From: Gallionellaceae bacterium | Lineage (GTDB): Bacteria > Pseudomonadota > Gammaproteobacteria > Burkholderiales > Gallionellaceae | Assembly: GCA_006218055.1 (NCBI GenBank) | Contig: VBWD01000019.1 | Coordinates: 1-34,243, forward strand | DNA: 34,243 nt | Direction of reading: 5' to 3' | Part shown: one piece after another, positions 22,062 through 34,243 of the stretch | Layout: each line of letters starts with the position of its first letter | How positions within the stretch are numbered: the stretch's first letter is position 1 | Made by a program: the position numbers and the translations under genes | Notes under the pieces: generated by a model | The model's database searches: none | Told to the model about the DNA's origin: nothing | What the model saw: only the letters and a program-made list of their open reading frames with translations

Positions 22062-23327
22062 TTAACTGATAACCGCCCTGCGTCGCATCAAATACAAGCC
22101 TATCCCCACCCCCACCATGCTCAACGCCACCACGTAATGCGCTGGCGCTAGCTTATCCAAGGGCAACAACAAACTGACCATCACAGGGGTCAATCCGCCG
22201 AACACGGCATAGGCGACGTTGTAGGAAAAGGATAGGCCGGAGAAGCGCACCACGGGCGGGAAGGACATCACGGCGGCGCTCGGCACCACGCCGATCACGC
22301 CGACGAAGAAACCGCACAAGGCATACAGCACATAGATGTTCTCTGGTGCGACGCCCAACTGCTGGTAGAGCAACCATGAAGTCGCCCCCAGCCCGACGCA
22401 ACCCGATGCCAACACACGCCCTGCGCCAAAGCGGTCAGCCAATGCGCCGAACAAGATGCAACCGATACTCAAGGAAAGGGTAGCGATGCTGTTCGCCTGC
22501 AAGGCTGTCGCCGCAGGAATGGCGAACAGCTTCTGCACCAAGGTCGGCGTCATCAGGATCATCACCACCACCGCAGCGGAGAGCAGCCAGGTCATCAGCA
22601 TCGTCAACACGATAGCGGGACGATGTTCGCGCACCACGGTCTTCAGCGGCAATTCGTCGGCCAACTGTTTGCGTGCCTGCATCTCTTTGAATACGGGCGT
22701 CTCATGCAAATAGCCGCGCAACCACACCGACACCAGACCGAATACACCACCGATGATGAACGGGATGCGCCACCCCTCGGCCAGTAAATCAGCGGGAGCA
22801 TAACTGCGGTTCACCGCCATCGCGACCAAGGAACCGAGCAGGATGCCGCCCGTCAATCCGGCTGTCAGTGTGCCGCAGGCGAAACCCACATGCCGTTGTG
22901 GCACGTGCTCAGCCACGAACACCCATGCCCCCGGCACCTCACCACCGATGGCAGCGCCCTGCATCACGCGCAAAGCCAACAATAATATGGGCGCCCAGAT
23001 GCCGATCACCGCATAGGTGGGCAACAAACCGATGAGTAGTGTCGGCACCGCCATCAACAGGATACTCAGCATAAACATGCGCTTGCGCCCGAACAGGTCG
23101 CCGAAATGCGCCATGATGATGCCGCCCAGCGGGCGCGCCAGATAGCCTGCGGCGAAGATACCGTAGGTCTGCACTTGGCGCAGCCAGTCTGGCATGTCGG
23201 GCGGGAAGAACAGTTGCGAGATAGCTGCCGCGAAGAAGATGAAGATGATGAAGTCGTAGAACTCCAGCGCACCACCCAAGGCGGCGAGCGACAAGGTTCG
23301 ATAATCGTTGCGATTCAAACTAGACAC
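22062..23327 (-). CDS. MFS transporter of the metabolite:H+ symporter (MHS) type
   Basis: A 421-residue integral membrane protein with about 12 hydrophobic segments. The start LAALGGALEFYDFIIFIFFAAAISQLFFP and the loop 2-3 motif GDLFGRKRMFMLS are typical of MHS transporters such as ProP-like and YhjE-like proteins, which import small organic acids or osmolytes with protons. The substrate cannot be deduced. The start is a GTG preceded by AAGG, and it overlaps the end of the upstream membrane-protein gene by 8 bp, so it is the last gene of the surface cluster. Confidence 0.85.
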   Translation of the reverse strand: MSSLNRNDYRTLSLAALGGALEFYDFIIFIFFAAAISQLFFPPDMPDWLRQVQTYGIFAAGYLARPLGGIIMAHFGDLFGRKRMFMLSILLMAVPTLLIGLLPTYAVIGIWAPILLLALRVMQGAAIGGEVPGAWVFVAEHVPQRHVGFACGTLTAGLTGGILLGSLVAMAVNRSYAPADLLAEGWRIPFIIGGVFGLVSVWLRGYLHETPVFKEMQARKQLADELPLKTVVREHRPAIVLTMLMTWLLSAAVVVMILMTPTLVQKLFAIPAATALQANSIATLSLSIGCILFGALADRFGAGRVLASGCVGLGATSWLLYQQLGVAPENIYVLYALCGFFVGVIGVVPSAAVMSFPPVVRFSGLSFSYNVAYAVFGGLTPVMVSLLLPLDKLAPAHYVVALSMVGVGIGLYLMRRRAVIS

Positions 23328-23934
23328 GTTCGACCTTTCTTGCGCGCATCATCACCTTGATCGTCTGCACGATGGCGTAGATCGCCAGCGGCACGTCGAT
23401 CAGGTAATCCCAGATGTTGGTAGATTCGTACCAGCCTAGACTCCACGCCAATACGGCCAAGGAACATGCAGTAGGTAGGAGATACGAACCGCGACGCATA
23501 GACCACAGAGACAACAGCGCCAACATCACCAGCAGACCGACTCCACCGAAACCCGAACGATAGGGATCGAGCATGCCGATGCCCAGCGCGAACGGATACA
23601 ACAGCAAAGCCAACACGCTAACGAAGAAGAACAGGGCGAAGCGTTCGCGCAGGCTCCACCAGACGACTCCATCGCCTCCCGCCAACTGACGCAAGCGCGC
23701 GACAAGTGCCGCGATCAAGAGCAATACGCTGGTGATACTCAGGTCGCCTATGTGGCCACGCAAGAAGCCGGCTAGCGAAAGTCCCAAGATGGGCAACAAT
23801 GCGACACCGTAAATGACCAATACGAACAACACGCGTTTAGCATGACTAAGGCGAATCGCCACAGGCAAACGCAATGCCAACAACATCCATACCAATGCGA
23901 CACCAGACAAACCTGTCCAATCGGTGAATGACAT
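23320..23934 (-). CDS. Unknown membrane protein in the surface-glycan cluster
   Basis: A 204-residue protein with about six hydrophobic segments and no motif I recognise. A charged loop lies near ARLRQLAGGDGVVWWSLRER (about 75-95), and the short C-terminal tail is basic (MMRARKVERV). It starts 1 bp after the stop of the neuraminidase-like gene and overlaps the MFS gene by 8 bp, so the three are probably translated together. A role with the adjacent neuraminidase-like protein is inferred from position only. Confidence 0.75.
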   Translation of the reverse strand: MSFTDWTGLSGVALVWMLLALRLPVAIRLSHAKRVLFVLVIYGVALLPILGLSLAGFLRGHIGDLSITSVLLLIAALVARLRQLAGGDGVVWWSLRERFALFFFVSVLALLLYPFALGIGMLDPYRSGFGGVGLLVMLALLSLWSMRRGSYLLPTACSLAVLAWSLGWYESTNIWDYLIDVPLAIYAIVQTIKVMMRARKVERV

Positions 23935-30440: not shown

Positions 30441-30827
30441 ATGGCAACCAAGACCATCATCAGCACCCCCGACGCACCCGCCGCCATCGGCACCTACTCA
30501 CAAGCCGTGCGCGTGGACGACACCGTCTATCTTTCCGGCCAGATCGGCCTCGACCCTGACACCATGATCTTGACTGATGGCATCGAAGCTCAAATCAATC
30601 GCGTGTTCCAAAATCTGCGTGCCGTTGCCGTCGCGTCTGGTGGCAGCATGGACGACGTGGTGAAACTCAACATCTATCTCACCGACCTCATCCACTTCGC
30701 CAAAGTGAACGAGATCATGGCGACCTATTTCAGCCAACCCTATCCCGCACGAGCCGCTGTCGGTGTCGCCACCCTGCCGCGCGGCGCATTGGTCGAGGCG
30801 GATGGGGTATTAGTCCTGCAGGATTGA
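30441..30827 (+). CDS. ridA: RidA, 2-iminobutanoate/2-iminopropanoate deaminase
   Basis: RidA hydrolyses reactive enamine/imine intermediates released by PLP enzymes. The 128-residue protein has the full family pattern: [23 protein letters not shown], the catalytic Arg in [16 protein letters not shown] and Glu in [12 protein letters not shown] stands 9 nt before the ATG. Its stop overlaps the TTG start of recG, so the two are coupled, as is common in betaproteobacteria. Confidence 0.95.
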
Positions 30828-32894
30828 GTACACCCTCCAAAATCTCCCCGTCCACGCTGGCGAAACTCGCCAAGCTCGGCATCCATCATCGTGCCGATCT
30901 GTTGTTGCATCTCCCGCTTCGTTACGAGGACGAGACGCAGATCACGCCCATCGCCGATGCGCAGCCGGGGATGGCGGTGCAGGTGCAGGGCGTCATCACG
31001 CACAGCGAGGTGATGTTCCGTCCGCGTCGCAGCTTGGTGTGTCGTCTGATGGAAGGCCACGAAGAACTCACCTTGCGCTTCCTCAACTTTTACCCAAGCC
31101 AGCAAAAACAACTCGCCGTCGGCAAGCAGATACGTGCCATCGGTGAAGTGCGCATGGGCTATTTCGGCTTGGAGATGGTGCACCCAAAATGTCGCGCGGC
31201 GGATGACGACACGCCCTTACAGCAAAGCCTCACACCCATCTACCCGACCACGGCAGGGTTGGCCCAGCCTGTGTTGCGCAAGCTCATCAACAATGCGCTG
31301 GCGACCATCCCGCTCACCGACACCCTGCCTGCGCCGCTATTGAAGCGCCTGAAGCTCGCCGACTTCGGCGACAGCCTGCGACTGTTGCACAACCCGGAAG
31401 CCGATGTCTCGGCGACCGAGTTGGAAGCGCACAACCACGCTGCGTGGCGGCGCATCAAATTCGACGAACTGCTGGCGCAACAACTCTCCATGCGCGTGCA
31501 TCACCGCGAACGCAGCAAACGCATCGCACCCGCATTGCCGCCCCATACAAAATTGACCGCCGCCTTGTTGAAGAAGCTGCCGTTCAAACTCACTGGCGCG
31601 CAACAGCGGGTATGGCAAGAGATCGCGCACGACTTAGCTCTTGCGCATCCGATGCAACGCTTGTTGTTGGGCGACGTCGGCAGCGGCAAGACCATCGTCG
31701 CCGTACTCGCCGCGCTGCAAGCCATCGAGAATGGTTACCAAGTCGCCTTCATGGCACCGACGGAGATATTGGCCGAACAGCATTACCTCAAGTTGAGCGA
31801 GTGGCTGGTTCCTCTCGGCATCGAACCTGTGTGGCTCTCTGGTAGCTTGAAGAAGAAAGAGAAGACCGCCGCCGCAGAACGCATTGCAACTGGCGACACC
31901 CTGCTCGCCATCGGTACGCACGCGCTGTTCCAAGCCTCGGTCGAATTCAACAAACTCGGACTCGTCATCGTGGATGAGCAGCACAAGTTCGGGGTGCAAC
32001 AACGGTTGGAGCTTCGGAATAAAGGAAAAAACAACATGCTCCTTCCCCCTAGCAGGGGGAAGGCTGGGATGGGGGTTGAGTCGTTAAGCACTCAAGCTTC
32101 TAACCCCCACCTTGGCGATGAGTTACTACGCCGACCTCGATGTATCGATCATTGACGAACTTCCGCCCGGGCGCACGCCCATCGTCACCAAACTGGTGAG
32201 CGATGCGCGGCGCGACGAGGTGTTCGAGCGCGTGCGTGCCGCTTGCCTCGCTGGTCGTCAAGCGTATTGGGTGTGTCCGTTGATCGAAGAGTCGGATGCG
32301 CTGGAAGTGGAGTTGCAAAACGCCATCGAGACACATCAACAACTGACCGAAACGCTTCCTGAGCTGAAAGTGGGCTTGGCGCATGGCCGCTTACCGCCTG
32401 CGGAAAAAGCGGCGGTGATGGCGGCATTCAAAGCAGGTGAGTTGCATCTGCTGGTCGCCACCACCGTCATTGAAGTGGGCGTGGATGTACCCAATGCCAG
32501 CCTGATGGTGATCGACCACGCGGAACGCATGGGGCTGGCGCAACTGCATCAGTTACGTGGCCGCGTCGGTCGCGGTGCAGCAGAAAGTATGTGCGTGTTG
32601 TTGTTCATGCAACCGCTGTCGGAGTTGGCGCGCGAACGCTTGAAGGTCATCTACGAGAACACAGACGGCTTTGTCATCGCACAACAAGACTTACAATTAC
32701 GCGGCCCCGGCGAATTGCTGGGCGCACGACAAAGTGGTGTGGCGATGTTGCGCTTCGCCGACCTGACCGAAGATGAAGACCTGCTGGAGCAAGCACGACT
32801 CACTGCAGACGAACTGCTGCGTGACGCACCCGATGTGGCACGCGCACACTTACAAAGATGGATGGCGAACAAGCATGACTTCTTGCAGGTCTGA
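30824..32894 (+). pseudogene. recG: recG, ATP-dependent DNA helicase, broken by an inserted palindromic element
   Basis: RecG drives branch migration at stalled replication forks. The frame opens at a TTG overlapping the ridA stop and encodes the wedge/OB part, Walker A (LLLGDVGSGKTIVAV) and the DEQH box (VIVDEQHKFGVQQRL). After RNKGKNNML at 32040 the sequence leaves the RecG pattern, and the frame ends at 32155. The rest of RecG resumes one frame over at 32112 (LAMSYYADLDVSIIDELPPGRTPI) through QLRGRVGRG and GPGELLGARQSG to 32894. The two parts total about 663 residues, close to a full RecG (about 680-690), but the PHQLMxxATPIPR segment (motif III) is missing. Unless the assembly is wrong, no complete helicase is made. 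Confidence 0.85.
32041..32109. repeat. Palindromic element inside recG
   Basis: Two nested structures: a perfect 9-bp hairpin CCTTCCCCC/GGGGGAAGG (32041-32063) and a longer one in which TGGGGGTT (32070-32077) pairs with AACCCCCA (32102-32109), enclosing TTGAGT/ACTCAA (32076-32081 with 32090-32095). This has the look of a REP/MITE-type interspersed repeat normally found between genes. It replaces about 40 nt of recG. Confidence 0.75.
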
Positions 32895-32900
32895 CCACCC

Positions 32901-32956
32901 TCTCCCCAAACCCTCTCCCGCCTACGGGAGAGGGAGGAGCGTAGCGGAGGGAGAGG
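32901..32956. repeat. Palindromic intergenic repeat downstream of recG
   Basis: CCCTCTCCCG (32911-32920) pairs perfectly with CGGGAGAGGG (32925-32934) across a 4-nt loop, flanked by outer TCTCCC-type and GGGAGA-type arms. It fills most of the gap between recG and ubiC. Together with the element inside recG it suggests that C/G-rich palindromic repeats are interspersed in this genome. It could also act as a transcript-stabilising structure. Confidence 0.65.
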
Positions 32957-32983
32957 GAATTGTCTGGCATATGGATTTGAGAA

Positions 32984-33545: not shown

Positions 33546-34243
33546 ATGAAAATCGTCGAACGCCTCCACCTCTACATCCAACTCACTCGTCTGCATCGCC
33601 CCATCGGCATCTTGCTGTTGCTATGGCCCACGCTGTGGGCAGTGTGGATCGCAAGCCACGGACATCCCTCGTGGCTCGTCCTCGTCATCTTCACCCTCGG
33701 CACGGTGCTGATGCGCTCCGCCGGATGCGCGGTTAACGACTATGCCGACCGCCACATCGACAAGCATGTGAAGCGCACACAAGACCGCCCGCTCACCAGC
33801 GGCAAGGTGAGTGAACGTGAGACCTTGTGGCTGGCCATCGTGTTGGCACTGCTTGCCTTCGCGCTCATCCTGCCGCTCAATCCGCTGACTTGGCTGTTGG
33901 CCTTCCCCGCTGTGTTCCTCGCCGCGAGCTACCCTTTCACCAAACGCTTCTTCGCCATCCCGCAAGCCTACCTCGGCATCGCCTTCGGCTTCGGCATTCC
34001 TATGGCGTTCGCCGCGACACTCGGCCATGTGCCACCTGTCGCATGGGTGTTGCTACTAGCCAACGTGTTCTGGGCGATCGCTTATGACACTGAATATGCG
34101 ATGGTGGATAGAGACGACGACATCCACCTCGGCATCCACTCCTCTGCTTTGTTCTTCGGTAAGTACGACGTCATCGCCGTGATGGTGTGCTACCACCTCA
34201 CCTTGCTGTTGTTAGCGATAGCGGGATTGATGGCAGACCTGGG
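33546..34243 (+). CDS. ubiA: 4-hydroxybenzoate octaprenyltransferase, cut by the window end
   Basis: UbiA attaches the polyprenyl chain (made by IspB) to 4-hydroxybenzoate in the membrane. 232 codons are visible of an expected 285-290. The substrate-binding motif [23 protein letters not shown] (about 63-85) and the second motif [13 protein letters not shown] (about 180-192) are intact, and about seven membrane segments are present. The N terminus [25 protein letters not shown] is characteristic. It lies beside ubiC. Confidence 0.95.

Follow-up and report, generated by a model that had tools for sequence, protein, structure and literature searches.

The closest described systems to the repeats reported here are treated in a survey by Di Nocera et al. 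2013 (PMC3733652). There, short palindromic REP elements of the GTAG/CGTC kind are reported within conserved genes, many of them genes of replication and repair, and Rickettsia palindromic elements (RPE) are described as lying in frame in ORFs that likely encode functional proteins, so that in-frame REP and RPE inserts as such are already known from this source. The main text makes no mention of recG, and in the open-licence literature we found no account of the repeated use of one recG or mfd loop by unrelated repeat families. Like the GTAG/CGTC REPs, the repeats described below are dispersed intragenic palindromes, and one of their families, B, carries GTAG and forms an inverted pair; like the REPs associated with RAYT, family B surrounds a Y1 transposase match in two genomes. 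Unlike the GTAG/CGTC REPs, several unrelated families are found here at one recG site throughout a bacterial family, with a similar situation in mfd. The RPE are likewise in-frame palindromes in ORFs, but they belong to a different bacterial group, and the likeness is to their description in that survey.

The window, i.e., the whole stretch of 34,243 nucleotides that was analysed, is part of contig C97 of a draft Gallionellaceae MAG (1.66 Mb, 100 contigs, 71% complete), and the nearest named loci to its recG are those of Sideroxydans and Gallionella MAGs and of other Gallionellaceae. Coding of recG is intact up to about position 32035, and a palindromic repeat of 73 nt (32039-32111, plus strand) follows, behind which the frame is shifted by +1 and the segment EPHQLMMSATPIPR is absent. 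We refer to the RecG regions that flank this site as motif II and motif III. Matched to NF008166, the best NCBIfam RecG model, the 5' part of the gene (30824-32026, plus strand), which runs through the motif II region, covers profile positions 21-425 with its residues 9-404, and its ORF reads on across the repeat and stops at 32155. Between this part and the repeat lies the short linker KNNM (32027-32038, plus strand), which follows the last of the recG-like sequence and was assigned from the sequence and the comparison with relatives. The 3' part (32109-32894, plus strand), which extends from TLAMSYYADLD to the stop, lies in a different frame and matches profile positions 448-704 of 705. The junction itself, placed at 32111-32112 by comparison with five relatives (L015, L012, L010, L016 and L017), is where recG resumes without EPHQLMMSATPIPR, the motif III segment; four nucleotides, CACC, are common to the end of the repeat and the start of the 3' part. 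The window recG is therefore spread over two frames with EPHQLMMSATPIPR missing, in place of a single uninterrupted frame that carries the full set of helicase motifs. The original prediction had read the gene as a normal recG, then a palindromic repeat, then recG one frame over with the motif III segment lost, and both the profile matches and the relatives bear this out; it had put the net change at +28, however, whereas the distance between the anchors DEQHKFGVQQR and IDELPPGR is 202 nt in the window and 165 nt in relatives with an empty site, a net change of +37, which yields the same frame change of +1. A second palindromic repeat, of the CCCTCTCCC...GGGAGAGGG type, stands directly 3' of the recG stop at 32896-32960.

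The repeat within recG, a truncated copy of what we call family A, was delimited from its copies in the same genome, their alignment, its fold and the relatives. It forms a 5' hairpin at about 32041-32063 and a second one at about 32067-32111, and its stem-loop structure exceeds chance, with a folding energy of -20.8 kcal/mol for the 80 nt at 32036-32115 compared to -12.0 +/- 2.3 kcal/mol for shuffled sequences (z -3.9; 1 of 200 shuffles as stable). The element, likened in the original prediction to dispersed repeats, is indeed dispersed: a search of the genome for other copies returned 13 matches, the window copy counted. In all four of the other copies that were aligned a 3' hairpin is present, which the window recG copy lacks. 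The window repeat (LLPPSRGKAGMGVESLSTQAS) shares its frame with the recG insert of L016 as far as QAS, which immediately precedes the junction, and in the recG of relatives the family A insert reads LLPPSRGKAGMGVES...TPTLTLPLHGGG. The family A copies L002 and L006, neither of which sits within a spanning open frame, contain stops when read in the recG frame. No GTAG/CGTC end tag was seen on the aligned family A copies, and no Y1 transposase was found in the genome, as far as its 71% completeness covers. Family A also occupies mutM of the same genome, in the host frame and without a stop, at a site that is empty in relatives; among the 31 measurable mutM genes three contain it, and the remaining 28 leave little or no gap between the two flanking matches.

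The insert site was compared across the Gallionellaceae. In 11 of the 29 relatives that were fetched an insert occupies precisely the site of the window, between LRNKG (or LRGKG) and EPHQLMMSATPIPR, and all 11 inserts are in frame and free of stops, with motif III intact and with empty sites in other relatives; the window copy, which fails to keep the host frame, is unlike them. Five of these relatives (L016, L017, L029, L033 and L034) carry family A itself. The original prediction, according to which the element had itself replaced motif III and its presence at the site would destroy recG, is not supported in this respect: relatives share the same family at the same site, but there it is in frame and motif III is kept, and the break is limited to the window copy. 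The five intact family A inserts thus indicate that a tolerated insertion and a later loss are superposed in the window, and this later loss, whether real or artefactual, set in within the element and extended beyond EPHQLMMSATPIPR.

Among the named recG loci both anchors are present in 77 of 80, and the distance between them is a multiple of 3 in all 77; at least 8 extra residues are found at the site in 35 of 79 loci. A quick recG tree (87 distinct rows, insert columns removed, 31 of 84 inner branches open), counted after removal of 22 duplicates and of L071, which has no single frame, places inserts in 38 of the 71 rows on the Gallionellaceae side, the window included, and in none of the 16 other rows. 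By labels that are text patterns, apart from the window, L074 and L118, which were labelled by hand, 25 of the 38 inserted rows belong to families A to D and 13 to none. The fewest changes that this tree allows are 33 for the family states and 21 for presence, and a hand count within seven non-overlapping starred clades gave at least 12. Family B is present in recG as an inverted pair with the GTAG tag and reads VGRVSTRQ...VGLKPDLQ, and family C reads SVRPEPVEG or SVRGEPVEP; rarer kinds occur as well, and in L069 and L073 a C-like sequence appears to be nested within B. In-frame inserts of several families occupy one site with repeated turnover, and copies of the repeats are dispersed. In the outside rows, i.e., other Betaproteobacteria, the length of the loop varies without such repeats.

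A second, rarer insert site was observed in recG behind WVCPLIDES, in L060, L080, L093 and L094; the inserts of L080, L093 and L094 are nearly identical (GVSxKANVSAANVxRSGRSQ), and that of L060 is different and lies two residues on. As to structure, the remainder of the gene resembles RecG proteins of solved structure (1gm5; 9wm0-9wm3), the main insert site maps between residues 417 and 420 of the 9wm0 chain, and in the two solved RecG sequences that were aligned the matched blocks are two residues apart at this site. An AlphaFold2 model reached a mean pLDDT of 66, with about 24-34 in the insert blocks and less than 50 in parts of the second helicase domain, and owing to this low confidence little weight is placed on the model or on the fold search with it, in which RecG and Mfd chains ranked first.

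Matches to family B number 35-58 in each of five genomes as against 0-8 in the remaining 29, counts to which both strands of one palindrome can each contribute, and family B is present in recG in four of the five B-rich genomes as opposed to none of the 23 other genomes of the genus in which recG was read (Fisher p 0.00024). Its copies start with GTAG and end with CTAC, and Y1_Tnp matches lie within B clusters in two genomes (G021:C24:204217-204534 and G017:C228:5658-5903), so that in the relatives family B has the tag, the inverted pair and the associated Y1 transposase gene of a GTAG REP; no Y1_Tnp match was found in G015 and G002, both of them B-rich. These repeats are mobile within the genus. 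In G015, at 27 distinct B places drawn from the best 30 of 72 listed matches, at least seven are in frame within conserved genes and have a family match that spans the repeat, namely in recG, purL, folC, ybbP, bioH, a TIGR03862 flavoprotein and a SAM methyltransferase, with two further candidates (L192 and L204).

A comparable situation was observed in mfd, whose product is a DNA translocase related to RecG: in 18 of 31 genomes, the MAG's own among them, a single open frame runs through an insert, and the 12 inserts that were read are of several kinds. Any mfd match confined to one frame necessarily has a length divisible by 3, so what counts as evidence here is solely that the open frame continues unbroken through the insert. 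As controls, two proteins and one gene neighbourhood were used. Net inserts, a measure that an insert offset by a loss would escape, were found in none of 27 full-length SpoT matches and in none of 26 NrdA matches. In the neighbourhood, the window's other genes, compared with six syntenic genomes, contained one repeat-like insert of at least 15 residues in 156 comparisons (ubiC of G015) and five inserts of at least 8 residues (in hemW of three genomes and in ubiC and trmB of one each), and a recG insert of at least 20 residues was present in four of the six. The insert load at the recG and mfd sites is thus not general across genes. Some further observations were made in the course of these comparisons. 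A split SpoT match in G028 (L249, around 852) was rejected as an insert: it contains no repeat but an NN join whose two flanks overlap and are unlike each other, an assembly fault of the same kind as discussed below in another draft genome. The eight-residue insert at hemW residue 49 (G015, G007 and G005) reads PVLSLSKG and resembles a remnant of family C. The window is longer than its relatives at two places, a sialidase-like ORF (by 25 residues) and the ORF at 23320-23934 (by 9). Finally, a ribonucleotide reductase paralogue has frames of 1267-1497 residues in G015, G020, G021, G028, G031 and others, compared to 948-1029 elsewhere; about 1.1-1.4 kb separates its matches, between query positions near 606 and near 618, and looks intein-like.

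Regarding the break in the window recG, the state of the MAG at other genes is informative. The last base of the window lies inside ubiA (33546-34243, plus strand, cut at the window end) and is followed in C97 by a run of 84 N, where G015 has a sequence of about equal length (100 nt); since N can also stand for withheld sequence, the run need not be a scaffold gap. On the same contig, hemF, which encodes the oxygen-dependent coproporphyrinogen oxidase (L229:5568-6388, minus strand; about 39.6-40.4 kb in C97), is 91 nt short of its counterpart in G015, and on contig C29, mfd (L040/L208; loss at about 72.0 kb) is 26 nt short of that in G027, in both cases with no N and with the frame broken. The loss in mfd immediately follows the motif III region, where SVIA gives way to a stop; a repeat-like insert lies in frame further upstream. 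In total, the frame changes in three of the 69 genes of this genome that were compared with relatives (mfd, recG and hemF), recG being the sole gene flagged within the window; in five relatives five of 123 genes were flagged, four of them tandem paralogues and one a possible break. Runs of N occur in two of ten stretches of this genome versus none of 13 stretches of six relatives. The losses in hemF and mfd without an N, together with the N run in ubiA, suggest a single assembly cause for the recG break as well, which is probably an assembly fault.

Taken together, we consider it probable that two things combine in the window, a RecG loop that tolerates repeats and a break that stems from a faulty join at the repeat. 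The Gallionellaceae RecG loop, which leads from the motif II helix to the motif III strand, would tolerate added residues, and several unrelated REP-like palindromic families would enter it repeatedly. Since growth of this loop leaves the motifs untouched, in-frame, stop-free insertions would survive and be translated as additional RecG loop, and others would be lost. In the window genome, a family A repeat would occupy the loop in the usual frame, and an erroneous join at the repeat, in contig or scaffold, would have removed the 3' repeat end and the motif III segment and changed the frame. The recG insert is presumably translated in the relatives and the loop presumably no more than tolerant of inserts, tolerance being the simplest account of them. 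Alternatively, a real and recent deletion may have taken place between the repeat and recG, such that RecG activity was lost or the lineage is polymorphic. The original prediction had offered a lost RecG and a mis-assembly as the two possibilities, and the latter is now the better supported, by hemF, mfd and ubiA. In favour of a deletion, both sides of the junction are recG, on one contig with no N between them, the CACC microhomology is what a deletion might use, recG is the sole frame change flagged in the window, and the remainder of the window repeat differs by one nucleotide in length from the other copies. A second recG was sought as well and none was found in this 71% complete MAG, where the only other match is mfd, a result that fits a loss as far as the completeness allows. 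RecG is dispensable in E. coli. The dN/dS values of the 5' part (0.037-0.064 vs. the five nearest relatives) are slightly above those among pairs of intact relatives (0.026-0.043), with overlapping ranges, and those of the 3' part are 0.013-0.019 compared to 0.010-0.031; against L047, a sixth and more distant comparison, the two parts gave 0.081 and 0.050. Both halves are therefore strongly constrained, which argues against a long-standing pseudogene and means that a real loss, if any, is very recent. This, along with the internal losses elsewhere in the same MAG, makes a real deletion rather unlikely in our view, and an artefact most likely of the two; we infer that the break is one.

The inserts themselves could also be explained if the repeats targeted the recG and mfd loops preferentially, or if selection had made these loops landing sites, and the enzymes were affected. 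The load in recG (38/71) and mfd (18/31) against that in the two control proteins, SpoT (0/27) and NrdA (0/26), and in the one gene neighbourhood (1/156) argues for this, as does the finding in PMC3733652 that many REPs lie inside genes for replication and repair. Yet the families that use the one site are unrelated and presumably mobilised by different enzymes, metabolic genes (purL, folC and bioH) carry inserts too, and the loop varies in length in outside rows without repeats. Tolerance suffices, and such preference or selection is quite improbable in our view. That the insert is skipped or removed, by RNA splicing or a ribosome hop, with the window version as a variant, is hardly conceivable: although the hairpins on the coding strand are strong, skipping needs no frame, and the frame is kept in 11 of 11 relatives and in 77 of 77 anchor distances, for which reason splicing and hopping were set aside. 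Moreover, the two family A copies outside spanning frames do carry stops in the recG frame, and motif III is absent from the window either way.

To return to the tolerant loop and the faulty join, what looks in a draft genome like the loss of an almost universal repair helicase can stem from mis-assembly at a repeat. A bolder reading, in which RecG and Mfd would each offer one fixed loop as a reusable in-frame landing site to unrelated selfish palindromes across the family, with fast turnover and nesting and by way of targeting or enzyme tuning, seems to us doubtful at present. The RecG (and Mfd) proteins of the Gallionellaceae form a natural series in which a loop made by a repeat is present or absent at one site, and this series makes it testable whether in-frame palindromic insertion is neutral, targeted or functional, a question posed by REP- and RPE-decorated genes.
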